Assembly (NCBI RefSeq): GCF_900182835.1
Contig: NZ_FXUB01000001.1
Span: 434,001 to 498,000, forward strand
From: Desulfurobacterium pacificum
GTDB taxonomy: Bacteria; Aquificota; Aquificia; Desulfurobacteriales; Desulfurobacteriaceae
DNA length: 64,000 nucleotides
Direction: 5' to 3'
The notes beneath the pieces were generated by a model. It had not been told where the DNA came from, made no database searches, and saw only the letters and a list, made by a program, of their open reading frames with translations. The position numbers and the translations under genes are program-made. Positions within the stretch are counted from its first letter, which is position 1. Each line of letters opens with the position of its first letter. This document shows, in pieces, positions 36,965 to 55,825 of this stretch.

Positions 36965-37701
36965 GGTGAAAGCGGCGTTTCCTCTGGATTCACTTCAACT
37001 AAAACGGCACCGTGCCTTTTAGCTATCAACGGAATAGACGCAGCAGGCTGAACCACCGCTGAAGTTCCAACAGAGAAAAACACATCACTCTTTTCTGCAA
37101 AAGCAAAAGCCCTCTCCAGCGCATCTTCAGGAAGGCTCTCTCCAAACCAGACAACGCCAGGCCCAACGATACTGCCGCAAATCGGACAGACAGGTAGCTC
37201 TTCTTCCTTCAAGCCATTTAAAACCACCTTTTTAAATTCCTCTTCACTCATTTTTTCAAGCCTTTTTCTGTCAGCCAACGCAAATAATTCCGAAAATTCC
37301 TCTTCTTCAAAAACCTTTCCACAATCCCTGCACTTACCCTCAAAAATGTTACCGTGAAGCTCCACCAGGTTTTTAGAACCAGCCAGCCTGTGAAGTCCAT
37401 CAACGTTTTGAGTTATAAGCAAAAAGGCAGGAAACAAGTTTTCCATTTCAGCAAGAGAAAGATGCCCGGCATTAGGCTTTGCTTTAGAAATCAGCCACAT
37501 CCTCCACAAATACCACTGCCACACCTTTAAAGGATTACCCCTGAAAGCATCTAAAGTAGCAAGGTCAACAGGGTCATACTTGTTCCACAGACCGTCTTTG
37601 CCCCTGAACGTAGGAATACCGCTTTCAGCACTAATGCCGGCGCCGGTAAGAACGCCAACACTTCTGGCGTTTTTAAGAATTTCTAAAATTTCATCTGCCA
37701 T
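36892..37701 (-). CDS. cobB: class III sirtuin, NAD-dependent protein deacylase
   Basis: This protein of about 269 aa has GVLTGAGISAESGIPTFRG near residue 17, TQNVDGLHRLAG near 113, the catalytic His in ELHGNIFEG, and zinc-binding CRDC and CPIC pairs. WYLWR near 63 supplies the Y-x2-R pair typical of class III (SIRT5/CobB) sirtuins, which remove acidic acyl groups such as succinyl as well as acetyl. The ATG at 37701 overlaps the tpsA stop (TGATG), so it is probably expressed from the TPS operon. Confidence 0.92.
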   Translation of the reverse strand: MADEILEILKNARSVGVLTGAGISAESGIPTFRGKDGLWNKYDPVDLATLDAFRGNPLKVWQWYLWRMWLISKAKPNAGHLSLAEMENLFPAFLLITQNVDGLHRLAGSKNLVELHGNIFEGKCRDCGKVFEEEEFSELFALADRKRLEKMSEEEFKKVVLNGLKEEELPVCPICGSIVGPGVVWFGESLPEDALERAFAFAEKSDVFFSVGTSAVVQPAASIPLIAKRHGAVLVEVNPEETPLSPYCDFVFRASASEVLPGILSSLTE

Positions 37702-40700
37702 CACTGCTCGAGGGAAATGAGGGGATTTTCCTCCTGTATAAGGTTATTCGGATTAACGTAGAATCTGAATATTCCTTCATCTATCTTGTCCGTTGCCTGA
37801 CGGAACTTAAAGTTCTTCATTCTGGGGAAAAACTTAAATATCTCATTAACGGTATTGGAAACCTCTGTATCTATACCGTAGAAGAAGTTATCCTGAGGCA
37901 ATCCACCGTTAGAAACGTTATTCAGGAAGACAAGCCCAGGTGGAATATTCTCCACATTCAAGAACATCGGATTGGTATATCCATTTATATAAGCCGAAAT
38001 ACCGTAATAATCATCTTTACCATAAACCCTCAACGACAACGAACCTTTTATATCCACGTTAACAGGATAAAACGGTAAACCTATATATTTACCAGCAACA
38101 AACAGAGAATCCTTATCCGCTTTAACCAGACCTTCACCCATTATATAACCATCCGGAACTATCAGAGAAACACCGCCCTTTTTAGCTTCAATAAGAGAAT
38201 TAATAAACATATCACCGTTTATCACTTTAAGGTATATATCACCCTCTCCCGCCACAACATCATTCACGTTTAATGTTCCATCGTTGTCTATATATATACC
38301 ACCATAAAGAGTAGAAGCCTCCAATCTGGAAGTCTTCAGGTCAAGAGCATCTGAAGGCCTGCCTATACCAGAATCCGCCTTAAGAGTCACAGAAGGTGAA
38401 ATAATATCGTAGTCATAAGGAACTTCATTTCCATCCGAATCATAAATACCACCCCCCGCTTCTACAAAAGCGAAGTTACCGGCATTTACGCTGGAAAGAA
38501 TAGAATCACCTTTTACATTTATCATCACTGAATCTGAAGCGTTAACGCTCACTCCTGATTCCTGAACGAAATTACCATCACCTTCAATCGTCACATTGCC
38601 ATCAATCGCATAAATCTTACCCACCTCCTGCTCAACATCACCTGCAGAACGAACGTTAACTCCCTTACCGCCTATAATAAACGTGGAAATCGTCGCATAT
38701 CCTCCTGCTGAAATATTTACATCATCCCCGGCATAGACTCCTTCACCCTTCAACGATACATTTCCATTATAGGAAGAAAGGTTAATTTCACCGGTAATTG
38801 TTTTATAAACAGCTTCCTCCACCTCAGATAGCATCTGTTCTCTGTCCAATGAACCCGGAACATCTGCAAAATCAGATAGCATATCTTCAGTAACTACCCC
38901 ACCAGCTGAACCCATCAATCCATCTACATCCACATCACCTGTAGAATTCCACGAGATGAGTTTCCCAGAAACGTAATAACCTGACAGCGAAGCACTTCCA
39001 CCAGAATAACCTTTAATGGAGTCCAGAGCCACTACTGTAGCGTTATCCAGCGATATAAAATCAGCACTCGTCTCAACATTTACATTACTACCAGATAGAA
39101 CTCCGCTCACAACCCCGTTCCTGCCGGAAACGTTTATATCTCCCGTGGTTAAAACAGCACCATCAACAGTAAAATCTCTGGAAGATACAGAAATACCAGT
39201 AACGAGATTATCAGGCATGGGAATATTGTTAATGACATCTTTAATGAAATCAGGTAACTGTTCCATATAACCTGAGAAGATATCTTCAACTTTTCCATAA
39301 GATTCAACTATACCTAACCTGGAAACGTAAAAATCGCCACCACTGTTAATAGTTATTAAACCATTACTTCCTGCAATTCCCTCTATGCTGGCGTTCCCAC
39401 CAGATACAAGTGTCAGGCTGTTAATTCCGTAAACGCCTCCCTGTATATCAATATTTCCAGTGGAATTCACACTAATAGACTCACCACCTGTAAATCCTGT
39501 AACTTCTACTGAAGAACCGGCTATTGACGTTTTATTGGCAGAAAGTGTTAATCCATTCAACTCAACAGATTTCCCTGTATAACTAACATCACTTTCTGAA
39601 TAAGTGATGGCTTTCTTATCCTGAATTAAATCTCCAGATGCCACAACGTTTACTTTACCGCCAAGAACGGTTGAATACAAATAAACGTTACCATCAGCGT
39701 TAATATCCACCTTCCCGTCAGTATCCAGCAGAGCCTTAACATTTACATCTTTCCCTGCAACAAAGTTAATCTGCGAAGGTGAAACAACAGGCGTTTGAGG
39801 AAGCGGCAAATCTATAGAACCATCTGGAATATCAAAATTCTCAACAATGTCCGTAATACTGTTAACGGGTATTGTTTGAGAAGGAATATACTGTTCGAGA
39901 TTGTTGTCAAACACAAATGATCGAACATCCGCGTAGTAAGGACTTTCCCTTACAGTCTGCTCAAAGTAGTTATAATAACCGTTCCATACATTTTCGGTCT
40001 CAGAAACTGCACTTTCAAACTTATCGTTCACATAAGAAAGAGCATCCAGTAACAACTGTTTATCGTTACTCTCTTCCTCAGCAAACTCAACAAGGTTCTT
40101 AACAAATTGAACATCAGGAATCGTTACCTTAGCAGCACTGCCAGAATGCACGTAGCCTGGATTTAAAACGTTAATATTGCCACCTGCATTTACATTCACC
40201 GAACCTTTACCGTTAATCCAGGCAGCGCTGGTAAAATCACCACCAGAATTAACAGTTATATCACCAAGTGAATAAACAGAAGTATAATTATCAAAGTTTA
40301 CATCTCCAGCAGCAGAAATGTTTACCTGCCTCTCTCCTGCAATACTATTTACAGAACCACTGCTTGTATAAAGGTTAAACGAACCGGCACCGGTTACTAC
40401 CCTAATTTCACCACCTTCACTTGCCAAAGAACCATCAATATCAACATCTTTTTGAGCCTCTACATCAAGGAGGGAATATCCTTCAATTTCTCCACCGTTC
40501 AGAACAGATAGAGAACCTTCATCCGACTTAACGTAGGTAAATTCTGCTCCTGCAAAGGAAGAATCAAACTTTATGTCTCCACTGGCATGAATATTCAAAA
40601 CATTGCCCGAATCAATGTAACTTCCGTTTTCTTCACTGAAAGATGAAAGCCCATCAATCGTAACGTTATCAGTGTATGCAGTTATTCTTCCACCCGACAT

Positions 40701-43700
40701 AACAAGAGAAGAATTTCCATCACCGATAATATTAAGCTCACCGGCACTCCCCACTTTACCGGTTACCTGAATATCACCGCTAGACTTAAGAAGAAGCCAG
40801 TCTGAACTATAAACGGAACCTTCTATATCCAGATTACCCTGCGTCTGTAAAGAAAGATATCCGGAAGTAGAAGCCAATCTACCATCAGATGATATATTAG
40901 TATTACCTTCAACATTAAAATCTACAATCCCTGCTAACACATTCCCCGAAACGCTTAAATCACCTTCAGATGTCAGATAGAAATCACCCTTAACCGAGCT
41001 ATCCTTCAGAACGGTATTTCCATCATTAGTAATATTGACATCACCTGAAGAAAATACTTCTAAATCACCAGACCCCAAACTCAGATTAAGCGCCTTATCC
41101 GAACCACCACTATCTCCAACTCCTGCAGCAGTAATAAGAGCAGAATCCGCCTTAATATCTGCCTCTGTATCCTGACTCCAGTCATGAATGACACCGTTAG
41201 GAACTGAAAGCGTCAAATCGCCAGGAGTATATATATACTCAACGTAAAGGTCACCGTTAGGTGCCAGCAGATTAATACCGTTTAAAGCTCTCGCAACAAT
41301 CGGTGAGCCAGAATCAAGATAGACAGATAAAGGAACATCTGGCGTTCCTATAGCACCATCAGCAGACTCCAAAATAAGACCTTGAGGGGCAGTAATATTA
41401 ACTATACCGGAAGATGCCAGAATATCACCGTAAACTTTGAGTCTTACCCAGTCATCTTTACTGAACAGGTTGTAAACAGTCATCTTGGAATCAGAACCAA
41501 GATAAACGTGACCGGCTGCCACTGCAGTAACCTTACCGTTAGCGTCAACGTCAATATCATCTCTCTGGTGAATAATTATTTCCTTATTATCCGGGTCTAT
41601 CTTTACATCACCAATTTCAGCTGCTGCAAGAGCCAGATAAACTTTATCCTTTTCATCCTCAGGAATGGAATCCGGATCTGAATAGTTATAGACAATATCC
41701 TGCTTATCTATACCTATCGAACCACCCGTAAATATGTATACGTTATTTCCTACAATGTTAGGCGATTCCGTCATATAAACGGTATCTGTAACATCTTTCT
41801 TGAAAAGGAATGAAGGCAAAGGATTCTGTAGCTGTCTGTCCGTCCAGGTATTATCAGTTAACAGATTATACTGGTCAGGATCATCGGTCTGAACATTATA
41901 GGTAAAGTTCGGATTATAAGGTTCCTGTCCCCATTCATTATAAAGTTTCGTCATTTTATCTTCGTAGTCCTGTATCATATCATCGGTCCAGCCAGCAGCC
42001 TTGAGAGCATTTATCTCTTCATCAGACAACTTGAATTCCACTTCCTGATAATCAGAATAAGAATACGTCCCATCAGGATTTACCTTGAGGTTTCTGTAAT
42101 TCTTCCAGTAATCCTGATATTGCCTTTTCATCATTCTGTTATAAGCTTCTATTTCCTGCTCCTTCAACTCATCAGCTGAATCACCTGTCAATCCAAGCTT
42201 ATTCCATAACTCCTCTAACTCTGCAATGGTTCTATCGTCTTTCTTTTCGTTAGGATTAGCATCTATAAGATTTCCAAAAGGAACCTCTACATACACATCA
42301 CCCGAAGTCTTTATTTCATTCAGATAAAGGTCACCTGTAAGTTCTCTTATTTTTACGTCACCGTTTGAAGCCAGAACGGTAAGCGTTCCTCCAGCATCCG
42401 CATCAGTATCAACGTTAATAAATTCACCTCCTTCCGCAGACACACTACCAAATTTGGACTCAAGGTAAATATTTTTACCTTTTATAAGAGCACCACTGAG
42501 CGATGTTCCAGCAAATGGATCGTAGGTCTCAAAAACAAGATTTTTATCACCAACAATATTTACATCACCTGCAGTCTCTATACTTGAAATCATCGCATTG
42601 GTATCAACTGCATACAGGTTAACATCACCCGTGGCAAAAACGGAAACCTCAGGTATTACATAACTTCCAGAAACCAAACTTCCCGTTATTTTAATAGGTG
42701 CAGTCTGAGAACCAATGACGTTAGCTCTCAAACTTATTTTCTGACCTTGAATCAACCCTACATTTTTAGAAAGAATCTCTGGTGCAGTAATTTCTGTATT
42801 ACCTTCAGGATTTCTTATAACACCAGCAATCTCAACGTTGGAAGAACTATAAATGTTCACACTTCCTGTATCATAACCTATGAAGTGTATCTTTATCGGA
42901 TAATCTGCTTTTACATAGTTAAAGTAATAATCCCTATCCGTTTTCTTTTCAGTAACAGTCCATTTCACTATTGTATGCTTAACTAAAAAATGCCACTCAG
43001 TCCATTCATCCACATCAGTATGTTTACTATCCTGTGTTGTAACCCTAACATGTTTATAAGCATAAGGAGATGAACCGTCAAAACTATAAACTCCTAACAC
43101 CGAACCATTCGGTAGCTCATCATTCGACAGAGTTTTTGTATATTCATTAACTTTCCAGCTCTCTTCGTAATGCGCATCGCTGTAAGAAATAAACCCTAAG
43201 AACTTACCATAATCATGCTGATAAACCGTAACTGTTTTTGTTCCTGTTTCAGTTCCTTTCAACCAGTAATAATACAAATTATCCAATGGCTTATACTCAG
43301 CTATTCTACCGGTAATAGTTTGCTCGAGTTTTACAGGTTTTGATGAATCAATACCCATATTGTCATAGACTTGAATCGTATCTCCAAGCCGCGTGTATTC
43401 AGTTGTTAAATAATATTTACTACTATCAGGATCAAACCAGTTACCATAATTATCTTTACTTTTATCAACTAAAGTAACTTTCCCCTCAATTCCTCCCGTA
43501 TCCACACCTTCTATAACAACAGGATAATTTGTAAGGTTAGTTATCTGAATTTTCCCGTAACCATCCATTACATTAATCCAACCTTTTTTCGCATTATTAC
43601 CCGTATTTATAATTTTCCCCGATATAAATACAGTTCCCCCTTGAACACTAACATCAGGAATGTAAATCTTTCCATCCTTTAATTCATAAGAAAGAGTTTT

Positions 43701-46700
43701 CGCCAATACTGGTTCACCATCATCCATGTCTATCCAAAGTGAGCTCTCTTGAACCTTTATTGCTCCTGAAATCGGATCCGCGTATATGGTTATCTTTCTA
43801 TCAGGTATTCCACTCTGAATAATCCCATTTATATCAACAATATCAGCATTGATAAAAATATTATTACCAGCTAAAGTATAACCAGAATAAGAATCAATAT
43901 TACTTAGGCTCGTATTATAAGAAACATACGATGCCTCATTTTCTAAATCACTATCAGTATACGTTCCTGTATTACTCCCTTCTATACTCTGCGCACTATC
44001 CGCAGTAGATGAAAATTGCGACTCCGGATCTCCAAGAACAAAGTAAAAAGCATTAGGATTATTAAAAATAAAATTGGCACCCGCATCAAGAGTTATTGTA
44101 TTAGCAGATATTGGTTCAGTAACAATTATACTCCCTGTCCCTTTTATAGTTACAGAACCACCCATATTAGCAATATAAGTGTTTCCACTATCATCTCCAT
44201 CCGTCGTTGAATATCCTGCTATCACCGGCGGTGGATATAAATACAATGTTGACCCATCCGACGTCACATACATTTTTCTTTCTGCTTCACTTATTACTGA
44301 TATAGAAGGCAATGGCGAATTTTCACCATCAGTAACAGAGATATCAGGCCTAACATGAGAAGTATTAACTTTCGCAATATCATCTGAAGAATGAATAGAA
44401 GTAGTGTTAAACCTTACATGTCCTCCATGACTCCAAGGGATTATTAGAGAACCAAGTTCTATAGGTAAAGGCGACTTATTAACAACATCAATACTAACAT
44501 CCCCAGGTGCATTAAGCTTACCATCTCCATAAAGATTATCAGCATTAATATTGATATTACCTGAAGAAGCATAAATAGTCCCGAGTTTTATTATATGAGT
44601 AGTTTGCGAAAGTGCTGAATCAGTTAATTCACCTTTAAGTACTTCAATTTCAGTTTCTATATCCTGCGCTGTCTGAGAATCTGCCCCATAGTTTGCTTTT
44701 AAATCTTCTAATTCTTGAATTTTATCCTCTATACTCTTCTCTATAGTAAAATCCGTAATAAGACTCCAACTAACTCCATTACTTTCTTCATCAGGATTAA
44801 GAGTTTTCACATAGTTACCATCAGCATCATAAACTTTCCAAACTCCATCGTCCTCCACAACTGTATTAGGAACAAGTTTGTAAGCTGTACTGTTAGTAGT
44901 TGGATCAACATAGCTCGTAACATAAAAACCAGGGTTAAAATCCTCTCCAAAAGTCACATACTGCTTCCTGTATAGTCCCGTCTGCAATTCTCCATCCACG
45001 TAAACATCACCTTCACCAGCCGTATAACTCGTTCCTGCAGTATATTCCTCAGAACCATCATCATCACCAAACCACTCTTTAATTTCTTCCAGAGCTTTCT
45101 TATAGAGATCAATGGCTCTACCATAACCGTAAGCGTAAAGGTCACCCTTTGTAGCGGTTATATCTATATCATAGCCAGTCTCAACGGTGGCACCACCATC
45201 TATCTTCACAGTAGCATATCTGATTGAAGACGCTGTAGCATCAGGCGACCCTTCAAACGGAACCAGAGCCTTGTTATATATGTCAGTATAAGCCTTTGTT
45301 TTCAAATAACCCACAGCATTATCGTCAGCACCCGCCAAAATGGTCACTTTATGAGAAGCCTTTACAACAGCATTATCTTTTATTTCTACTATATCATTTG
45401 CTTTTATAGTAGATGAAGAACTACCATCAGCGTAACTACCACCACCGTAAGTATAAGAAGACGCTTCTACATTACCCTCAGCGTTTGTAACAGAAGCCAG
45501 TATCACATTTCCCATTACATCAAAGTTTGCTCCTTCACCAATAGAAACCGTAGAGTAAATGTTGTCAGTAGCGGAAATATCAGCCTCTGAATTAGCCAGG
45601 TCAATTAAACCACCACTGCTCAACTTCGCTTTTTCATAGAAATTAAAATCATTTACCGCTTTAATGAGAACATCGTTATCACTAAAGTAATCACCATCCA
45701 GTTTAATAAGTACTCCACTACCAACGTTCACTTTAGAACCGGTGTTGGAAACATTAAGATGAGCGTAAGAAGCTGATCCTTCTATAACGCCACCCGAACC
45801 CTCAGAAGAATTAGGTGTAATAGTCTGTGGCTGTGAAAGTTTGTTCGTTGCAACAATACTTATTTCAGAGGCTTCAAGGCTACTCCCATCTCCAATTTCA
45901 ATATCGGAATAACTCTCATCTACACTACCATAAGCATTTGCCCCACTCGCACCGGCTACAGAAGCCTGCGAGCTATCAGCGAAGAAGTTAAAGGTAACAC
46001 TCTTGTAAGCGTTCATACTTAAAGAATCATGAGAGTATATTGCCACATTGCTATCAGTAGATACGTTCAGAATATCATCCACGTAAACGCTGGCATAGGA
46101 AGCATCACCACTTACAACACCTCCACTACCTGCTACAGCCTTAGATTGAACCGTGCTGGTAGTCTGAGCCTTCACATTTACATCACCCTGAGAGTTAACA
46201 CTACTTCCACTATCAAAATAAATTCCATTCTCACCATTAAAGTCCACTTCCGCTTCAGACTCACCAATTGCCAGCAGTCCTCCTACCCCACCTTCAGCAT
46301 CAGCATAATCTGAACCTGCCCTCTGGGTAAACAGAGAAAATCCCCCCTCAGTAACCACCTTAGAATCAGTCCCCAACGAAGACTTAACAACAGAACCGTC
46401 CGACAGATACCCGTAACTTCCAACCGAGCCGGCCAGAAGCCCGCCACCTACTGAAGGTATTGCATTAGAAGATGCAAAAGAGTCACTCGTAATGGAAGAA
46501 GCCTGGTAGAAGTTATCAACATTTACCTGATTTCCAGAACCAATACTTGAAAGAACCTGAGGCGAAAGAGAAATCTGGGATAAGGATTCACCTGCCGTGC
46601 AAATCCCCAGATTAACGCCATCAGCCTTCGAATTCAATCCGTAAGTCAGAGTAGCCACCGCATTGTAATCACCAGACGCATAGACTGTATTGGAATATCC

Positions 46701-49700
46701 CGTATAAACCTTCACATAAGGGTCGTAATCAATTTCAGAATCTGAAGCAACTGCTGATGCCGCACCAACATTCACCGGCAAAGAGTAAACGTTAACAGAA
46801 TCATCTCTTGAAGCGCTAAAATTCAAAGATTTCACTTTATTGGAAGAACTACCTATATCAACGTTATTCCCGACGTAAGCTGCTGTCTCACCACCAACGT
46901 CAACCTCAGATTGCGTAATTCCAGCTACAGCCAATCCTGCACTGGTTCCGATAGACTTAACGTCAACGTTAATACCTTCCGAAGAAGAAAAGTTCAGGTT
47001 CACATCACCGCTAATCGAAGCATAATCCCCAATGTAAGACAGACCGTTACCACCTAAATCCACATAGGTAACAGCTGCTCCCAGAGTTATTCCACCACCA
47101 GAACCGGCATACGTAACAGCCGTAACGTTATCACTTACATCAGTTTTAACGTCCAGCAGAGAACCAGGAACAGTAAAGCTAACATCTGCACCTGAATCTA
47201 TATAAGCCTCTGCATTCCCATAATTCTTAATTACATTAACAGTTCCGCCGATGCCAGCAACTCCGAAAGCGCCTCCACCAATTTCAGAATCAACGTTAAT
47301 ACTATTCTTTGCCATCAGAGATAGGTTTCCATGAACAACAACATGAGCGTTTTTACCTATAGATGCCAGAGTCAAATCTTCAAAGGAAGAATCTTCAGAT
47401 AGGTCATCAGAAACGCTATCATCTGACGTATCAGAAGAGACTTCATTATTAACGTCACTAACGCCAGTATCCAATCTAAAAGGATCAGTTATACTGTTAT
47501 CAACTCCGCTGCTCGTATCCCCCATTGCTTTATCTTCATTTGAGTCAAAAGAGCTACCCACATGAACGACAGAAACGGTGCCCTGAACTCCCACAAATCC
47601 AGCACCCAATCCAATAGCTTTAACGTCAATATCCCTATCAGTATCCGCGCCTATCAATACAGAATTTGCATCAACATTTGTAGAATCTCCTATAAAAGCT
47701 GCATTGTAGGAATGAATAGAAACAACGTTTACAGAAGCACCTATAGAAGCACCTGCTGAACCAGCAGCATTACCAACGCCACCTTTTATATTTGTAGTAT
47801 CCACAGACGAAACGTTCAGATTATTAGCCCAAACATCCGACGTTCTATCACTACTACTACCAATGAATGCCCTCGTATCAGATCCAATAGATATAACGCC
47901 AACAGAACCACTAAGCCCCAGATAATCACCAACTGAAACGTTGGCTACCGCATAGTTAATGCTTTTGGTAGCATTAGCACTGACGTTAACGGTCGCCCTT
48001 GCAGCAGAAGTCCCAACCTGAGAACCAGCAATAAAAGAATAAGTCTTATTATTAACTTTCACTACACCAACACCACCACCAAGCCCAGCAGGTCCACCAG
48101 TAGCAGACAGAGAACCTATAATAGCACCTGGCAAACTACCATCCTGCAGGGAAAACGTATCTTTAGCATTTACGTTCACAACAGGCGAATATAAATAACT
48201 GTCCGTTACGTAAGCCTCATTTTCAGACTCGGAAACAATCACCCCTATAGCCCCGGCTATAGATACCTCACCCATAATAGAACCGGCTACTGCCGTCACG
48301 AACGGCGTCTCTGCCGTTTCAGAACTTACAGACACGCTGGCAGCTTTAACTCTCGACTGCTCTATATAAGACGTTGTCTTCTCTTTAAAAACAATAGCAC
48401 CTGCTGCTACCCCTGCACCTGCTGCACCGCCGCTGGTAACAGCCATTGAACCATCCATAACAGACACATCAGAAGAATGCACTGCAGAAACGTCAACCAT
48501 GGATGCACTTGTAACATCCGAATCATCGATATAACTTTCTACATCGTCTTTGTCGGTATCCACAGAAACCGTTCCACTAAAGCCAAAAAATCCACCCTTC
48601 GCCAGCGTTCCCGTAGCAACATACGTCTTCCAGTCTTCTTTGCCTTCAGCTTTTATTCCGATTCCTGTAACGGAATAGCTAAAATCACCTAAATTAACGC
48701 TTTCACTGGAAGCCCCGGACACAATAGTAGAATTGTAAGAATAAGCCTTAACAACGTTTGAAACGATATTGGCAGTTCCGGTTCCACCTATACCTACTTC
48801 ACTACCACCAACTATAGAACCACCGTATATGCTATTTTCACCCTCATAAAAAGACGCCGTTACAAAGCTTCCACTTGAAGTTACATTAGAATTTGAAACG
48901 TAAGATTCAACATCATTTTCCTCTTTGTTAATAACTACGTTAAAACCGACGCCCGTTTTGGAAACTGCAACAGAAACGCTAACGTCCGTCACACTGGGAT
49001 TAGCATAAGAAACCAATCTAACCGAAGTTGCATTTACAGAAGTATCTGATAGATACGAAGAAACAGAATCGCTCAAATCATTATAGGTAAAGGAAGCACC
49101 TATACCCACAGCGTTCTTACTTGCAGTTAGAGCACCTGAAACAACAACAGAAGTGCTGTTATCTATAGCCTCTACATCAAGCTCATTAGCTTTCACGCCA
49201 TCCTTTTTCTTGCCGGCCACGTAAGCAGAAACGTCAACGTTTGAAAGATTAAAGGACGCAGAAGCAGCAGCAAGCAAGTAACTGTCTTTTGCAGCCGAAG
49301 CAGAAGCAGTAATACTCAACAAATGCCTATCCGAATTGCTCTCTAAAAATAAACTTCCAGAATCAACATCCGAATCGTTCAGATACGAACTTTCAGTTCC
49401 GCTTACATCGTTAATAGAAATCGACGCACCGGCAGCTATTTTAGCGCTCGAAATGTCAACAGCAGCAGAAACTATCCCTGAACTGTCTTTTACGCTTGCA
49501 GAAAATGTATTAGAAGTAACTGTAGAATTTGTAGCGTAAGAGAGAAGGTCTTCATTTTTCTTCACTTTAGTAACCGAACCCACAAGTGCACCTGAGTTAT
49601 CAGAAGAAGCCACAGCGCCACCAGCACCAATGGTAACTGCATGACTCACGTCATCAGAGAACAAACTTAAATCGTCAGCACCTGTAATCGTAGAATTTTC

Positions 49701-52700
49701 AAGATAACTTTCTGTATCGAGAGACATATAATCAGCCATAAATGCACCGTTAAGTCCTGCACCGTTAGAATCCGTAGAAGTAACCGCTGCAGTCCCACTT
49801 ATAGCGTAAGAGTCTGTGGAATAGCGCGAATTCAGATATAAATCAGAGCCGCCAGAAGCGACGAAAGACAGATTATCAGTATAGGCTGATGTCTTCGTAT
49901 TTACCAGATTAACCACACCTGCAAAGACAGCTGCAATTCCCGTCGTAGGCGTCTGCGGTTCATCGCCGAAAAGATTTGGAAGGCTGTAACCATCAAGTGG
50001 GTCATCCTCAGCGACGTTAGAAAACTTCGTAGACTGAGTAACTACAGAACCAGCAATCACTATGCCAAGGTTCAAACCATCGTTAGTAGCAGATACAGTT
50101 GTATCGCCATCACTAACGTTTAAGACGCCAGATAGATAGCTTTCGGTATCCCTGTTTATATCGTTGATGACGGCAGAAGCACCAATACCAACGCTATGTC
50201 CAACGATAATTCCACCTACAACGTTAATAGCCTTATTTTCATCAAAAGCGCTGACAACAACAGCATTGTTACCGGTTATATAATCACCACCAACGTTTAA
50301 AATACTTCCTTCTGTAGTGTAGGCTTTCGTTGTTTTATCAATTCCCAGCCAGGAAAAAGAACCGCTTATAGCGTAATTATCTGCTATACCTCCAGCTATT
50401 CCTAAATTGAAAGCAAAATCCTTCGAATATGCATTAACCTGTAGCGCCGTAGCATTAACGGTTCCACCAAGTTGAGCAATAGTGGTTTGCTTCATTTCTA
50501 AATCGTTATAAGAACCACCAACAGCGCTTTTATCCGTAGGCTTCAACTCACCTGCTAAATCACCAGCAACATTCAGGAAAAACAGATTTTCATAGGCATT
50601 AACGTTCACTTTTCCATAGCTATCAACGTTCTGGTTAATTGCAACACCATCATCAACCAGAGCCTTACTCGTCTCATCGAAATGAGCTATATCCACCATT
50701 CCAGCTACACCAACAACACTACCACCTGATGTGCTGACAACCAGATTATTAGGAAAAGCATAATTTTCTAAGTAATCAACTGTTTCCCCCACATAATACT
50801 TCGTCGCATTGTAGTAGTCTTCAGCTGAAGACAAACTTCCAGAATATTTATCAAAAGTGTCCCTGCCATAACTCATATCTATCTTGGAATCAACATTCAA
50901 ATCACCCACAGCGTCAAGACTTGAACCGCTGTAAACGTGGGTTTCCACATCATCCTTAATCAGAGCTACAGAAACTGCACCTGCAAAAGAATAATCTTTC
51001 TTGGCAGAATCATTATTATTAACACCCGCAGAAGCTCCCATACGTATATTACTTACAGGATAGGTAAGCGTTGAAGAAAGATTCAAATTTCCAGCCGAAG
51101 AAACAGAAGCACCGGAAAGAATTTCATCGGTCACAGAAGTATCACTATTAACGTAAGAAAAAGCAGCAGAAAAGCTAAAAGTAGAAGAATTACTTTCAGA
51201 CTTTGCCGACGGAGAATTTTTAGTCATAAAATTAGTAATCGCATTTGCTGGAAGATAGTATTCGGGCTTCAAATAAGCCGTTTTTCCTGTGCCAGATGAA
51301 GAAGATGTGCTAATGGCAAAATTATCAATATTTAAATCGCTCTTAATACTGGCATCACCAGAAGTGGAAACAACATTACCAGATACTGAACTTTCTACAG
51401 TGCTTTCAAGCTCAGCTATGGCAACAGAACCACTTAAAGTTCCATCAGCATAAGCATTTCCCACACCCTTAACTTCTACACTTTCCTCACCCTCTGCAGC
51501 AATATTAACCGATGAACCTTCTATCAAAGAAGCATCACCCACGGACAGCTTTGAAGTTAAAGACCCCTTACCATAAGCAACGCCTATATAAAAGTTATTA
51601 CTATCCCTACTTTCATCTACCTTGACTACCGTCTGAGCTTTAGCCGTAAGTTCCTCATTAGCATAAGAATAGATGTTAACAGTTCCAGCAGCCTTTATGT
51701 TACCGTTAATCGTAACTTCCGATGAAGGCTCTGAAACAGAATAGGCAACATTACTTACCGGAAGGTATTCTGCAACATAGGCTTTTGCGTGAGCCTGCGA
51801 TTCAACATCTACGTTTGTTCCTTCTATACTGGCACCCTTTTCTATTATTATCTTGGAAGAAGCCTGAGCTTCCTCTTTAGCACCTCCCGCAAAAGGTACC
51901 CCCGAAGAATACGCAAGAAAGTCTAGAGTTACAGTTTCACTCCCTTCCTCTGCATCACTTTCACCAAACGTAGAAATTTCCTCTGCTTTTGAATATAAGT
52001 TAACATCACCCCCTTTAAGTAAAGCACCTGACTTAATTGTCAATGAAGTATCGCTACCACCAATAGCATTCAGAGTTATAGTGCCAGACTTATAATCGTT
52101 ATCAGCAAAGGTAACCAGTGTGGCATTAGTTCCTATCGTTATATTGGGTGCGGTAAATGTTAAATTACCGGAATCACCCACAGAAGGTAAGGAAATTTGT
52201 TCAGTAGCATTTGTTGAACCAACATTTCTCGTTGAAATTACAGCACTATCAGAAACAGTTATCGAGTTAGTGGCGTTAACCTCATAATCTCCACCACCTG
52301 TAACGTAACTGCCCAAAACAACATCTTCAGGGTCAACAACCACTTTCCCGGGCTTACCATCTTCAGCTGAAACATCAGTTCTTCCTGAAAGATTAACAAC
52401 ACCATTACCGCTTACTTCTACAAACCCTCCTGAAGAGTCTTCCCCCTCACCTTTAGCCTCAATATCAGAGCTATCTTTCAAATCTACTTTTGTCGAGCCA
52501 AATATCTCCACACTTCCTGCATTTGAATTTTCAGCACCGCTGGCAAGAATAGAACCACTATTTTTAACACTACTACCTTTTATCGTCACAGAGCCAGATT
52601 CTGCACCTGACTCTCCCGAAGAAACATCAATAGAACCACTATTCTCAACTGTTCCACCTTCCAAAACAACTGTGCCACCCTTAACTTCAAGAGATTTTGC

Positions 52701-53471
52701 CTCTATAATTCCTTCATTATTAACAACAGAAGAAAAAACGTTCTCAGCAGCTTTAGTCGTCAGAATTACATCACCACCATCTGCCTTTATAACTCCTACG
52801 TTTAAAACGCTCCCGGAAGAGTTAGAAGAATCCACAGAATAGGTGATTAAACCATCTCCTAAAAAGTCAAACCTGTATTCAGTTCCCGAAGCCAAAATAA
52901 CCTTGCCGAGCTTCGCATATATAAAGCCTTCATTAGAAACAGAAGGAGCAACGAGCATTACAAAACCGTTATCAGTTAACCTTATTTCACCACGGTTAAT
53001 CACAGAAGCCAAAGGCTTATTCGCTATTTGCTCAAAATCATAGTTACCATTCAGAAAATCCTCATCCCTTATATCAAGCGTAGTAGCCACAAGTCCGGCA
53101 ACGTCAACAACGGCACTTTTACCAAAAACTATACCGTTAGGATTAACCAGAAAAACCCTCCCATTCGCTACCAGTTTTCCTAAAATTTCCGAAGGGCTTT
53201 GACCAACCACTCTGTTTAGAATAACTGCTGCTGAAGAAGGCTGGTTAAACTTAACTAACTCCTTCTCAGCTATACTAAAAGCGGACCAATTAACAATTGC
53301 CTTATCAGTAGCTTGCTTAATCAACATTTCTGTAGTTGAAGGAGTAGTTATCGTAGCCTTACCAGCTACTACCTGTCCATCCTGCGGTAAAGCATAAGCT
53401 ACCTGTCCCCCCGCTAAAAAAGTAATAGAGGTCGTAAGGAACTTCCTCAAAGAACTTTTTCCATAAGCCAT
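37701..53471 (-). CDS. giant TPS-secreted filamentous adhesin (TpsA, haemagglutinin-like)
   Basis: This exoprotein of about 5,256 aa was placed at the ATG at 53471 because GTGAGG lies 6 nt before it. After a signal region (about 1-30, ending AYA) comes a TPS domain with LVNPNGIVFGKSAVVDVAGLVATT near 110-135. Next are haemagglutinin-type repeats with an S/G/E-rich stretch near 260-370. Thousands of residues of beta-helix repeats follow, with units such as SYV-x-S-x-V and GDVNV. An acidic D/S-rich linker is encoded at about 47370-47480. A distinct region at 42750-45000 includes a coiled-coil-like segment. Cys is almost absent; I noticed one, in GICTAG. It resembles LktA-type adhesins. There is no visible membrane anchor. 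Confidence 0.93.
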   Translation of the reverse strand: MAYGKSSLRKFLTTSITFLAGGQVAYALPQDGQVVAGKATITTPSTTEMLIKQATDKAIVNWSAFSIAEKELVKFNQPSSAAVILNRVVGQSPSEILGKLVANGRVFLVNPNGIVFGKSAVVDVAGLVATTLDIRDEDFLNGNYDFEQIANKPLASVINRGEIRLTDNGFVMLVAPSVSNEGFIYAKLGKVILASGTEYRFDFLGDGLITYSVDSSNSSGSVLNVGVIKADGGDVILTTKAAENVFSSVVNNEGIIEAKSLEVKGGTVVLEGGTVENSGSIDVSSGESGAESGSVTIKGSSVKNSGSILASGAENSNAGSVEIFGSTKVDLKDSSDIEAKGEGEDSSGGFVEVSGNGVVNLSGRTDVSAEDGKPGKVVVDPEDVVLGSYVTGGGDYEVNATNSITVSDSAVISTRNVGSTNATEQISLPSVGDSGNLTFTAPNITIGTNATLVTFADNDYKSGTITLNAIGGSDTSLTIKSGALLKGGDVNLYSKAEEISTFGESDAEEGSETVTLDFLAYSSGVPFAGGAKEEAQASSKIIIEKGASIEGTNVDVESQAHAKAYVAEYLPVSNVAYSVSEPSSEVTINGNIKAAGTVNIYSYANEELTAKAQTVVKVDESRDSNNFYIGVAYGKGSLTSKLSVGDASLIEGSSVNIAAEGEESVEVKGVGNAYADGTLSGSVAIAELESTVESSVSGNVVSTSGDASIKSDLNIDNFAISTSSSSGTGKTAYLKPEYYLPANAITNFMTKNSPSAKSESNSSTFSFSAAFSYVNSDTSVTDEILSGASVSSAGNLNLSSTLTYPVSNIRMGASAGVNNNDSAKKDYSFAGAVSVALIKDDVETHVYSGSSLDAVGDLNVDSKIDMSYGRDTFDKYSGSLSSAEDYYNATKYYVGETVDYLENYAFPNNLVVSTSGGSVVGVAGMVDIAHFDETSKALVDDGVAINQNVDSYGKVNVNAYENLFFLNVAGDLAGELKPTDKSAVGGSYNDLEMKQTTIAQLGGTVNATALQVNAYSKDFAFNLGIAGGIADNYAISGSFSWLGIDKTTKAYTTEGSILNVGGDYITGNNAVVVSAFDENKAINVVGGIIVGHSVGIGASAVINDINRDTESYLSGVLNVSDGDTTVSATNDGLNLGIVIAGSVVTQSTKFSNVAEDDPLDGYSLPNLFGDEPQTPTTGIAAVFAGVVNLVNTKTSAYTDNLSFVASGGSDLYLNSRYSTDSYAISGTAAVTSTDSNGAGLNGAFMADYMSLDTESYLENSTITGADDLSLFSDDVSHAVTIGAGGAVASSDNSGALVGSVTKVKKNEDLLSYATNSTVTSNTFSASVKDSSGIVSAAVDISSAKIAAGASISINDVSGTESSYLNDSDVDSGSLFLESNSDRHLLSITASASAAKDSYLLAAASASFNLSNVDVSAYVAGKKKDGVKANELDVEAIDNSTSVVVSGALTASKNAVGIGASFTYNDLSDSVSSYLSDTSVNATSVRLVSYANPSVTDVSVSVAVSKTGVGFNVVINKEENDVESYVSNSNVTSSGSFVTASFYEGENSIYGGSIVGGSEVGIGGTGTANIVSNVVKAYSYNSTIVSGASSESVNLGDFSYSVTGIGIKAEGKEDWKTYVATGTLAKGGFFGFSGTVSVDTDKDDVESYIDDSDVTSASMVDVSAVHSSDVSVMDGSMAVTSGGAAGAGVAAGAIVFKEKTTSYIEQSRVKAASVSVSSETAETPFVTAVAGSIMGEVSIAGAIGVIVSESENEAYVTDSYLYSPVVNVNAKDTFSLQDGSLPGAIIGSLSATGGPAGLGGGVGVVKVNNKTYSFIAGSQVGTSAARATVNVSANATKSINYAVANVSVGDYLGLSGSVGVISIGSDTRAFIGSSSDRTSDVWANNLNVSSVDTTNIKGGVGNAAGSAGASIGASVNVVSIHSYNAAFIGDSTNVDANSVLIGADTDRDIDVKAIGLGAGFVGVQGTVSVVHVGSSFDSNEDKAMGDTSSGVDNSITDPFRLDTGVSDVNNEVSSDTSDDSVSDDLSEDSSFEDLTLASIGKNAHVVVHGNLSLMAKNSINVDSEIGGGAFGVAGIGGTVNVIKNYGNAEAYIDSGADVSFTVPGSLLDVKTDVSDNVTAVTYAGSGGGITLGAAVTYVDLGGNGLSYIGDYASISGDVNLNFSSSEGINVDVKSIGTSAGLAVAGITQSEVDVGGETAAYVGNNVDIGSSSNKVKSLNFSASRDDSVNVYSLPVNVGAASAVASDSEIDYDPYVKVYTGYSNTVYASGDYNAVATLTYGLNSKADGVNLGICTAGESLSQISLSPQVLSSIGSGNQVNVDNFYQASSITSDSFASSNAIPSVGGGLLAGSVGSYGYLSDGSVVKSSLGTDSKVVTEGGFSLFTQRAGSDYADAEGGVGGLLAIGESEAEVDFNGENGIYFDSGSSVNSQGDVNVKAQTTSTVQSKAVAGSGGVVSGDASYASVYVDDILNVSTDSNVAIYSHDSLSMNAYKSVTFNFFADSSQASVAGASGANAYGSVDESYSDIEIGDGSSLEASEISIVATNKLSQPQTITPNSSEGSGGVIEGSASYAHLNVSNTGSKVNVGSGVLIKLDGDYFSDNDVLIKAVNDFNFYEKAKLSSGGLIDLANSEADISATDNIYSTVSIGEGANFDVMGNVILASVTNAEGNVEASSYTYGGGSYADGSSSSTIKANDIVEIKDNAVVKASHKVTILAGADDNAVGYLKTKAYTDIYNKALVPFEGSPDATASSIRYATVKIDGGATVETGYDIDITATKGDLYAYGYGRAIDLYKKALEEIKEWFGDDDGSEEYTAGTSYTAGEGDVYVDGELQTGLYRKQYVTFGEDFNPGFYVTSYVDPTTNSTAYKLVPNTVVEDDGVWKVYDADGNYVKTLNPDEESNGVSWSLITDFTIEKSIEDKIQELEDLKANYGADSQTAQDIETEIEVLKGELTDSALSQTTHIIKLGTIYASSGNININADNLYGDGKLNAPGDVSIDVVNKSPLPIELGSLIIPWSHGGHVRFNTTSIHSSDDIAKVNTSHVRPDISVTDGENSPLPSISVISEAERKMYVTSDGSTLYLYPPPVIAGYSTTDGDDSGNTYIANMGGSVTIKGTGSIIVTEPISANTITLDAGANFIFNNPNAFYFVLGDPESQFSSTADSAQSIEGSNTGTYTDSDLENEASYVSYNTSLSNIDSYSGYTLAGNNIFINADIVDINGIIQSGIPDRKITIYADPISGAIKVQESSLWIDMDDGEPVLAKTLSYELKDGKIYIPDVSVQGGTVFISGKIINTGNNAKKGWINVMDGYGKIQITNLTNYPVVIEGVDTGGIEGKVTLVDKSKDNYGNWFDPDSSKYYLTTEYTRLGDTIQVYDNMGIDSSKPVKLEQTITGRIAEYKPLDNLYYYWLKGTETGTKTVTVYQHDYGKFLGFISYSDAHYEESWKVNEYTKTLSNDELPNGSVLGVYSFDGSSPYAYKHVRVTTQDSKHTDVDEWTEWHFLVKHTIVKWTVTEKKTDRDYYFNYVKADYPIKIHFIGYDTGSVNIYSSSNVEIAGVIRNPEGNTEITAPEILSKNVGLIQGQKISLRANVIGSQTAPIKITGSLVSGSYVIPEVSVFATGDVNLYAVDTNAMISSIETAGDVNIVGDKNLVFETYDPFAGTSLSGALIKGKNIYLESKFGSVSAEGGEFINVDTDADAGGTLTVLASNGDVKIRELTGDLYLNEIKTSGDVYVEVPFGNLIDANPNEKKDDRTIAELEELWNKLGLTGDSADELKEQEIEAYNRMMKRQYQDYWKNYRNLKVNPDGTYSYSDYQEVEFKLSDEEINALKAAGWTDDMIQDYEDKMTKLYNEWGQEPYNPNFTYNVQTDDPDQYNLLTDNTWTDRQLQNPLPSFLFKKDVTDTVYMTESPNIVGNNVYIFTGGSIGIDKQDIVYNYSDPDSIPEDEKDKVYLALAAAEIGDVKIDPDNKEIIIHQRDDIDVDANGKVTAVAAGHVYLGSDSKMTVYNLFSKDDWVRLKVYGDILASSGIVNITAPQGLILESADGAIGTPDVPLSVYLDSGSPIVARALNGINLLAPNGDLYVEYIYTPGDLTLSVPNGVIHDWSQDTEADIKADSALITAAGVGDSGGSDKALNLSLGSGDLEVFSSGDVNITNDGNTVLKDSSVKGDFYLTSEGDLSVSGNVLAGIVDFNVEGNTNISSDGRLASTSGYLSLQTQGNLDIEGSVYSSDWLLLKSSGDIQVTGKVGSAGELNIIGDGNSSLVMSGGRITAYTDNVTIDGLSSFSEENGSYIDSGNVLNIHASGDIKFDSSFAGAEFTYVKSDEGSLSVLNGGEIEGYSLLDVEAQKDVDIDGSLASEGGEIRVVTGAGSFNLYTSSGSVNSIAGERQVNISAAGDVNFDNYTSVYSLGDITVNSGGDFTSAAWINGKGSVNVNAGGNINVLNPGYVHSGSAAKVTIPDVQFVKNLVEFAEEESNDKQLLLDALSYVNDKFESAVSETENVWNGYYNYFEQTVRESPYYADVRSFVFDNNLEQYIPSQTIPVNSITDIVENFDIPDGSIDLPLPQTPVVSPSQINFVAGKDVNVKALLDTDGKVDINADGNVYLYSTVLGGKVNVVASGDLIQDKKAITYSESDVSYTGKSVELNGLTLSANKTSIAGSSVEVTGFTGGESISVNSTGNIDIQGGVYGINSLTLVSGGNASIEGIAGSNGLITINSGGDFYVSRLGIVESYGKVEDIFSGYMEQLPDFIKDVINNIPMPDNLVTGISVSSRDFTVDGAVLTTGDINVSGRNGVVSGVLSGSNVNVETSADFISLDNATVVALDSIKGYSGGSASLSGYYVSGKLISWNSTGDVDVDGLMGSAGGVVTEDMLSDFADVPGSLDREQMLSEVEEAVYKTITGEINLSSYNGNVSLKGEGVYAGDDVNISAGGYATISTFIIGGKGVNVRSAGDVEQEVGKIYAIDGNVTIEGDGNFVQESGVSVNASDSVMINVKGDSILSSVNAGNFAFVEAGGGIYDSDGNEVPYDYDIISPSVTLKADSGIGRPSDALDLKTSRLEASTLYGGIYIDNDGTLNVNDVVAGEGDIYLKVINGDMFINSLIEAKKGGVSLIVPDGYIMGEGLVKADKDSLFVAGKYIGLPFYPVNVDIKGSLSLRVYGKDDYYGISAYINGYTNPMFLNVENIPPGLVFLNNVSNGGLPQDNFFYGIDTEVSNTVNEIFKFFPRMKNFKFRQATDKIDEGIFRFYVNPNNLIQEENPLISLEQ

Positions 53472-53491
53472 AACATGCCTCACCAATTAGT

Positions 53492-54187
53492 TTAAGCAAG
53501 CTTCGAGAAATTAGCTAAAGAAATTAGATGCGCGTAAACTGCCCCCATAAATCCTTTTTTAAACAAATCAAACACCTGTTCTTTATTCAGCTTTGACAAT
53601 CTAACTTCATCAACAACAAATAAATTCTTGATTACTACCGTCTTATCGTTACCCTTTTTAACCGTCGCTTCCATGCCTTGCAAAAGGTTCAAACGCTGAA
53701 GTTCAGAAGCAAACTCAACTGTAAGTTGGTAATCCTTATCGTAAGCTGAAAGGAAACGAGCCGCTGACTTTAAAAACTCTGTTTCTTTTCCCTCCTCATT
53801 AAAAAGCTCTTTGCCTTCACCATCTTTTACTAAAAATCTTCTATCAACACCTACGAATAATTTCCTTTCCCCTCCGTTGCCTGAATTTTTATCTTCAACC
53901 AGTATAAAGGGAAAACGTCTAACAAAAGCAGGAATGTAATAGTCTTTAGTCCATCTACCATTCTCATCTATGAAAACATTCCTTTCCACACCAAGTAAAA
54001 AAACCGGCATAAAACCTTCAGGAGTGTTCATAAACACTATAGGGTAGAATTTACATGCTTCTCTGAACTCTGAAACTAAAGCCACACATGAATTAAGCGG
54101 CTTAAATTCCTCAAAACTCTTAACTTCTTTGAGCTTAAAACCTTTATGCTTTTTAGAGTTAAGCACTTCTACATCTTTATACAACAT
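53492..54187 (-). CDS. SapC-like protein
   Basis: This 231-aa soluble protein resembles the SapC family, first named from the Campylobacter S-layer locus. Supporting segments are FYPIVFMNTPEGFMPVFLLGVERNVFIDENGRWTKDYYIPAFVRRFPFIL (about 48-97) and a C-terminal LNKEQVFDLFKKGFMGAVYAHLISLANF. It lacks a signal peptide. It sits between tpsB (10 nt) and tpsA, so it is likely to assist or regulate secretion of the giant protein. That role is inference. Confidence 0.78.
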   Translation of the reverse strand: MLYKDVEVLNSKKHKGFKLKEVKSFEEFKPLNSCVALVSEFREACKFYPIVFMNTPEGFMPVFLLGVERNVFIDENGRWTKDYYIPAFVRRFPFILVEDKNSGNGGERKLFVGVDRRFLVKDGEGKELFNEEGKETEFLKSAARFLSAYDKDYQLTVEFASELQRLNLLQGMEATVKKGNDKTVVIKNLFVVDEVRLSKLNKEQVFDLFKKGFMGAVYAHLISLANFSKLA

Positions 54188-54197
54188 GATTCCTCCC

Positions 54198-55760
54198 CTA
54201 AAACTCCTTCGTTATCTGAACATAAGTATTAAGATGTCGTACACCGCCATCCAATTTCGGATGTATTGGATATCCAACATCAGCTTTAATCCTAAAATCG
54301 CCCGGCAGGTTTAACCTCATTCCAAAACCAGCTCCAGTTAAAGCTCTCTTCTTTTCCTGACCTGAATAAGGATGGTTTAGAAAAACCTTTCCTGTATCAA
54401 AGAAACACAGGAATTGAAGAGACTGCCTATCAGGTGTGGGTGCCCAACGCAATTCACCGGACAGAGAATAACCGCTATCACCACCATATTGCGTTAGTAG
54501 GAATCCCCTTATTGAAGCTGGTCCACCTATATAAAAATCTTGAGAAGACATCAAAATACTTTTAGAGTACTGCCCCTTAAACTTCAAAACGCCAAAAACA
54601 GACTCTGTCAATCTTTGCACTCTCGTAAGACCTAAATTGAACTTCGTAAATTTCGTAGAAGCGTTATACCTACTCGCTTCAGCTTCATTATCTCCACTAC
54701 CGAACGTTGCTCCAAGTCCTTGAGTAACAGAAAACTCCATCAAATTTTGAGAGAAAACTTCATTTTTTCTATAGAGAACAGTTCCCTGCACGTACCTTAC
54801 ATGGTCTTCACTTGTAGTAGCACCCAACATAGTCTGTTTAGAATAAACGCTGTTAAAAGAAAATTGAAAATCCAATTCTTTATTAACCAACTTTACAAAT
54901 GGATAGTTAAAGTAAAAACCAAAAGCTCTTGAATAACTCTTAATATTAAGAACAGCTAACTCTCTCCCCAAGTTACTATTACCAAAAGAACCCCAAAAAC
55001 CTGTTCTTAACCCATTCCTTCCCGCAGGAATCTCATAGGAAACACTTCCAGAATGCAATCTATGATAACTACTACCAACAATTCCTGAAAAAGAAAGGCG
55101 AGAACCTTCTAAAAACACATTACCAATATCCAAACCCAGTCCGTAACGTATCCTACTTGTATACTTTGAACCCCAATTATTAAGGAATACCTTTCCCTTT
55201 ACATCTCTTTGTTTTTTAACTTTTAGATAAACATCTGTAGTTAATGGTTCTTTACCTTTCTTCAAATCTGCAGTAACTTTTAAACCAGGATTATCATTTA
55301 AAACAAGAAGTTTTCTCTCTATCTGCCTCTTATTAAGAACTTTTCCTTTTAAATCTTCAAAAAATGAAAGAACAAAAAGTTTCTTCTTTTCGCTTATTCC
55401 CCCTTCTATGTAAATATTCCCCACTCTCCCTTCTGCAATCTTAATAACAACTACACCATTTTTTACTTTTTGAGGTGGGATATAAGCTCTTGATGTTATG
55501 AAACCTTTTCTTAAAAGTAAATCGGTAATAGAACTGGCTATTTCATCTAAGGTCTTTAAAGTTAAAGGTTTCCCTATGTATTTATCAGTTATTTTCTCAA
55601 TTTCAGAAGAAGGAACAAGCGTGTTTCCTTCAACAACAATCTTTTTTATAGTTAAAAAAACTTTTTGCTCCTGTGAGGCGAAACAGGATAAACTAAGACC
55701 CCCTTCAAATAACAAAACTGGAAGTACTAAAAGTAAAACTCTTCTTTTTAACCATTTCAT
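54198..55760 (-). CDS. TpsB outer-membrane transporter (ShlB/FhaC/HecB family)
   Basis: This protein of about 520 aa exports the TpsA partner. It has a signal peptide (KRRVLLLVLPVLLF to SCFAS) and two POTRA domains: IVVEGNTLVPSSEIEKI, then GVVVIKIAEGRVGNIYIEGG and LNDNPGLKVTADLKKG. A 16-strand-type barrel contains the GPASIRGFLLTQYGGDSG region near 440, the family's conserved VRG(F/Y) motif. It ends QITKEF. The ATG at 55760 follows a G-rich SD and gives a proper signal peptide; an upstream GTG does not. Confidence 0.93.
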   Translation of the reverse strand: MKWLKRRVLLLVLPVLLFEGGLSLSCFASQEQKVFLTIKKIVVEGNTLVPSSEIEKITDKYIGKPLTLKTLDEIASSITDLLLRKGFITSRAYIPPQKVKNGVVVIKIAEGRVGNIYIEGGISEKKKLFVLSFFEDLKGKVLNKRQIERKLLVLNDNPGLKVTADLKKGKEPLTTDVYLKVKKQRDVKGKVFLNNWGSKYTSRIRYGLGLDIGNVFLEGSRLSFSGIVGSSYHRLHSGSVSYEIPAGRNGLRTGFWGSFGNSNLGRELAVLNIKSYSRAFGFYFNYPFVKLVNKELDFQFSFNSVYSKQTMLGATTSEDHVRYVQGTVLYRKNEVFSQNLMEFSVTQGLGATFGSGDNEAEASRYNASTKFTKFNLGLTRVQRLTESVFGVLKFKGQYSKSILMSSQDFYIGGPASIRGFLLTQYGGDSGYSLSGELRWAPTPDRQSLQFLCFFDTGKVFLNHPYSGQEKKRALTGAGFGMRLNLPGDFRIKADVGYPIHPKLDGGVRHLNTYVQITKEF

Positions 55761-55796
55761 TACTCCCCCGAGATAAACCACCCATTTCTATTCTTC

Positions 55797-55825
55797 ATTC
55801 TAAATCAGACATCCGATTGTGTCAA
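55797..55825 (-). promoter_or_regulatory. near-consensus promoter of the TPS operon
   Basis: Read on the minus strand: TTGACA (55820-55825), exactly 17 bp, TAGAAT (55797-55802). The start would be near 55790, giving a leader of about 30 nt before the tpsB ATG. This is the best sigma70-type promoter I see in the window and implies substantial constitutive transcription unless a repressor acts. Confidence 0.7.

Follow-up and report, generated by a model that had tools for sequence, protein, structure and literature searches.

A probably acquired two-partner secretion cassette in Desulfurobacterium pacificum with SapC as a putative cytoplasmic third partner

Among the closest described counterparts of the locus reported here are the HMW1A/HMW1B/HMW1C and EtpA/B/C systems, which likewise comprise a two-partner secretion (TPS) pore, an exoprotein and a co-transcribed cytoplasmic third partner acting before export (PMC3983070, PMC8151025). 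TPS proteins need to stay unfolded in the cytoplasm; some use SecB or DnaK, and the targeting of FhaB uses SecA/SecB (PMC8151025). According to a 2021 review, the role of cytoplasmic chaperones has yet to be determined for many type V proteins (PMC8151025). Here we describe a TPS locus in a stretch of 64,000 nucleotides from Desulfurobacterium pacificum (hereafter the window) that includes a gene for a SapC (PF07277) protein. We propose, with moderate confidence, that tpsB-sapC-tpsA is a probably acquired TPS cassette with a cytoplasmic third partner, likely a dedicated holdase or pilot for TpsA.

The genes tpsB, sapC, the 15.8-kb tpsA and cobB follow one another in this order and are all co-directional (Table 1). 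The preliminary description of this DNA had placed a near-consensus promoter ahead of these four genes on a single strand, and this layout stands. The promoter, TTGACA-17-TAGAAT, is the best site of the region, and is treated as a candidate because promoter-like sites as a class are not more frequent than in shuffled sequence. The tpsB open reading frame extends over 54198–55781, with a probable ATG start at 55760 and a ribosome binding site (GGGGGAG) giving a protein of 520 aa. Ten nucleotides separate the end of tpsB from the start of sapC, and the tpsA frame (37701–53486) has a probable ATG start at 53471. Rfam and tRNA scans gave no matches.

Table 1. Positions (in the window) and supporting evidence for the features of the locus
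Feature	Position	Strand	Evidence
Candidate promoter, sigma-70-type, TTGACA-17-TAGAAT	55797..55825	-	11/12 consensus matches, best site of the region
tpsB, outer-membrane TPS transporter (ShlB/FhaC type)	54198..55760	-	PF03865 101.9 bits, PF08479 78.8 bits
sapC, PF07277 protein, 231 aa	53492..54187	-	206.7 bits; TPS linkage elsewhere
tpsA, giant filamentous exoprotein, 5256 aa	37701..53471	-	PF05860 139 bits; TIGR01901; composition
cobB, Sir2 deacylase with YxxR	36892..37701	-	Sir2 (PF02146) 166.2 bits

TpsB combines a POTRA_2 domain with a ShlB barrel, identifying it as a type Vb pore, and the N-terminal end of TpsA carries a TPS secretion domain (PF05860, residues 33–287; TIGR01901, 85 bits), identifying it as a type Vb exoprotein. 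Pfam gives no other domain in TpsA, which has weak LktA_tand_53 repeats and a single cysteine. No other TPS-domain gene occurs in the genome, and sapC is likewise present in one copy. Based on these families, we predict that TpsA is secreted through TpsB.

SapC was found in 26 of 136 Aquificota genomes, mostly in other contexts; the proteins of L052–L070, from other families of the phylum, are divergent and have neither TPS nor giant neighbours. In G101, which belongs to another Aquificota family, the genes again lie in the order tpsB-sapC-tpsA, with a tpsA of ~5814 codons and no cobB downstream. Compared with the window proteins, its SapC shows 51% and its TpsB 45% identity, and each is the sister of its window counterpart in the respective tree (TpsB 100/100; SapC 100). 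Plasmids of Azospirillum and Thalassospira carry tpsB-tpsA-sapC on one strand with a tpsA of 14–19 kb, and the eight that score best against the window TpsB among 340 plasmid records are theirs, seven of them from a single genus. Of 276 gammaproteobacterial genomes sampled, 36 contain SapC and 90 a TPS domain; nine genomes have between them ten TPS open reading frames near sapC, each sharing its strand (p=0.001), and among the matches listed 81 of the 90 TPS genomes have no SapC linkage. Hidden Markov models place a TpsB beside sapC and the TPS gene in G185, G178, G231, G338, G299, G238, G252 and G325 (two loci), with partial confirmation in G352. Three more loci (L130, L135, L143), in which a TpsB-like gene adjoins SapC and the tpsA N-terminus lies beyond the DNA examined, are counted as probable.

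Gene order varies among these loci. sapC precedes tpsA in the window, G101, G178 (tpsB-sapC-tpsA) and G185 (tpsB-sapC-(dut)-tpsA), and follows it in the remaining linked loci; in the one case tested (L245:9112-9819), a FecR-domain gene of ~235 aa separates tpsA from sapC. TpsBs linked to SapC are not monophyletic in the TpsB tree, where well-supported branches force at least four changes; the link therefore does not reflect one cassette copied around. The preliminary description had considered SapC part of a possible secretion-modification unit and named the absence of such synteny from all relatives as a result that would speak against it; tpsB-sapC-tpsA recurs (G101, G178), and the linkage with tpsAB in two Aquificota families and in Alpha- and Gammaproteobacteria supports the idea that SapC is a genuine component of that secretion machinery.

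Some neighbourhoods have features of separate interest. L157 and L162 include a small gene similar in size to the FecR-domain gene of L245. The dUTPase gene between sapC and tpsA in G185 (L144:10409-10885) is a further example of a housekeeping gene lodged within a cassette of this kind. The same genome has a stop-free frame with a TPS domain that extends over 29206 aa (G185:C1 ~289900-377400; L144, L249). This frame, the largest for an exoprotein in the search, adjoins tpsB-sapC-dut and is followed by genes resembling ExbB/ExbD/TonB in sequence. Plasmids of Cupriavidus (L238:3033-4434) and Klebsiella (L243:3068-4437) carry MotA/TolQ/ExbB proton-channel genes after tpsB, recalling the ExbB-like genes behind the giant tpsA of G185. 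G226, which also contains SapC, has another long open frame with a TPS domain (18106 aa, its place marked by G226:C1:301724-302407), and the two are not adjacent.

In the gammaproteobacterial sample, SapC-linked TpsA open reading frames have a median length of 3315 aa versus 1474 aa for unlinked ones, a difference that weakens to p=0.037 once short, possibly fragmentary, unlinked frames are dropped. An open reading frame of at least 1500 aa is present in 20 of 40 gammaproteobacterial SapC neighbourhoods (up to 20 kb) compared with 2 of 39 control neighbourhoods (Fisher 5e-6), almost all of which come from the genomes that supplied the SapC set; the 20 include L138, whose giant frame is antisense and was not taken as a tpsA. 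Giants beside SapC include one with RTX repeats and others that start with LEPR-XLL-like motifs and are accompanied by HlyD/TolC genes. In further examples, genes for HlyD, a site-2 protease and SapC come in this order after a 38.8-kb LEPR-XLL gene, an Arcobacter SapC occurs with a 25.7-kb gene and a type I exporter, and sapC is paired with a type I exporter on a Campylobacter plasmid. Genome papers contain isolated mentions of SapC beside type I exporters (PMC11059613, PMC6374484). Some SapC genes are solitary, and one clade (L146, L147, L150, L155, L159, L169) lies between genes that resemble TonB receptors and genes that resemble cupins and tryptophan halogenases in sequence. A scan of genome contigs recovered one weak relative, and none was found in viral contigs and phages.

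The SapC of the window matches PF07277 over its full length (1–220 of 220) with a score (Table 1) that compares with a curated cut-off of 28.9 bits, and no second Pfam family was matched. A signal peptide is not evident in the protein, which should therefore act in the cytoplasm and is proposed as the cytoplasmic third partner of the cassette. The annotation "surface layer protein" would be misleading, SapC being probably not the surface protein. An AF2 model built from three sequences has a pLDDT of 57.8, and Foldseek, run with it on the PDB, returned no structure at E <= 0.001.

We predict that TpsA (~5250 aa), once synthesised in the cytoplasm, is exported by Sec, that the POTRA domains of TpsB recognise its TPS domain, and that the TpsB barrel threads it to the surface, where it would fold into a long, presumably beta-helical adhesin. 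SapC would act before export, most likely by binding nascent TpsA and either keeping it competent for export or delivering it to Sec. A holdase or pilot fits because SapC-linked substrates are biased to very large size, and HMW1C is a precedent for a dedicated cytoplasmic third partner (PMC3983070). Against this stand the many TPS systems, the majority, that have no linked SapC, the SapC genes found alone or with TonB-receptor-like genes, the other contexts of most Aquificota SapC genes, the weakening of the size difference noted above, the low pLDDT of the AF2 model and the empty Foldseek search, and polar residues (H14, E40, N70, D115 and S223) that are near-invariant across 33 diverse SapC proteins and could mean catalysis. 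We infer both the location and the holdase activity of SapC, and judge a holdase or pilot role most likely, with modification of TpsA ranked second.

For the task of keeping proteins of 3000–29000 residues competent for export in the cytoplasm, SapC offers a concrete candidate: it is small and conserved and recurs beside giants that use several different secretion routes. Such a role, if true, would give PF07277 a function. More tentatively, the family may be a general helper of this kind for giant exported surface proteins, independent of the secretion route (type Vb, type I and LEPR-XLL/HlyD), in which case it would be a component of giant-protein export left out of the two-partner model.

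If SapC were instead a cytoplasmic enzyme modifying TpsA ahead of its export, in the manner of HMW1C, which glycosylates HMW1, its position as a third gene would match the HMW1A/B/C precedent (PMC3983070, PMC8151025) and the few near-invariant polar residues would find a ready explanation. However, SapC has no similarity to enzyme families in Pfam or NCBIfam and none to PDB entries at the sequence level, and we consider this alternative unlikely. A regulator that tunes expression or translation of the adhesin genes appears more doubtful again. Its probable cytoplasmic location would suit such a protein, as would the fact that sapC is free in its order relative to tpsA while sharing its direction, but a DNA- or RNA-binding domain was not found by Pfam, and regulation leaves unexplained why SapC should favour exported proteins of very large size and occur with several secretion routes. 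The preliminary suggestion that SapC may act as a chaperone or a regulator is compatible with the data in either form.

Less probable still is that SapC merely travels with islands of surface-protein genes. Surface genes do cluster on plasmids and islands, and some SapC genes are solitary or have TonB-receptor-like neighbours, yet the linkage is seen in several phyla and classes and at several separate places in both trees, with differing gene orders and the same strand in 10/10 cases measured. A holdase or pilot for TpsA remains our preferred role for SapC.

The cassette and the gene behind it appear to have different histories. SapC is absent from the other 21 genomes of the family, in which TpsB has no full-length match and one partial match of 18 bits. 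GC3 is 0.26 (0.259) for tpsB, 0.32 for sapC and 0.29 for tpsA against a background of 0.399 (sd 0.034), placing them 4.1, 2.4 and 3.1 standard deviations, respectively, below the neighbouring genes; the value of the giant repetitive tpsA may reflect its own composition, a bias to which tpsB and sapC are less open. Its absence from the rest of the family and its atypical composition indicate that tpsB-sapC-tpsA was probably acquired horizontally. By comparison, cobB has a GC3 of 0.396, equal to the background (0.399 +/- 0.034), and is found in 20 of the 22 family genomes, among them each of the 16 that are of good quality. It encodes a class III sirtuin, with a Sir2 domain and the class III YxxR motif (YLWR). 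In most family genomes inspected, as in the window, cobB overlaps a convergent PMT-family gene on its downstream side and retains the block that lies beyond it, and its upstream side varies between genomes.

The tpsA stop shares bases with the cobB ATG (TGATG), as the preliminary description had reported, and a terminator between the two genes, which it had named as speaking against the unit, was sought and no terminator-like site found. This overlap is not a sign of partnership, because the cobB of relatives often abuts or overlaps its upstream neighbour by a few bases. Conservation of cobB after tpsA, which it had proposed to search for, was not seen: no sirtuin was detected beside the G101 tpsA or in any other SapC/TPS neighbourhood searched, and positive controls were detected. 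The idea of a secretion-modification unit with a deacylase is accordingly unsupported; a functional role for the sirtuin in the unit, as a deacylase of TpsA, TpsB or SapC, is highly improbable, since against the overlapping start and the missing terminator must be set a gene that is family-wide, native in GC3, joined to a conserved PMT block, often abutting other upstream genes in relatives and beside no other SapC/TPS locus examined. The cautious alternative offered earlier, that the sirtuin is a read-through passenger, has fared better: cobB is a native passenger outside the acquired cassette, and may be co-transcribed with tpsA and functionally unrelated to it. We predict that the cassette inserted upstream of the native cobB, so that the start of this gene has come to overlap the stop of tpsA.

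No link of SapC/PF07277 with TPS, hemagglutinin, halogenase or giant exported proteins was found in the open literature searched, subscription journals lying mostly outside it. The component families are known; the arrangement of three partners including SapC, and the repeated occurrence of SapC with giant exported proteins, are apparently undescribed there. The sapCDEF locus of Campylobacter fetus has the name SapC in common with ours, and its sapC adjoins the exporter of a large surface S-layer protein (PMC4943207); the Campylobacter plasmid locus mentioned above is homologous to it in layout. That exporter is of type I, whereas the pore here is of type Vb, and Pfam searches of the genes flanking sapC in the window (TPS, sirtuin, mannosyltransferases, RNA methyltransferase and release factor) identified no type I exporter SapDEF. 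In Azospirillum and Thalassospira, where the protein is annotated "SapC family protein", the same three genes lie on one strand, but sapC is last instead of between tpsB and tpsA. Like the locus described here, Bordetella FHA/FhaC comprises a TPS domain, a POTRA/ShlB transporter and a giant exoprotein; no SapC is known in that system. Pfam found no HMW1C-like glycosyltransferase in the operon, whose third gene is SapC. The third partner of the HMW and Etp systems is such a glycosyltransferase, whereas SapC belongs to an unrelated family and its gene is placed between tpsB and tpsA.
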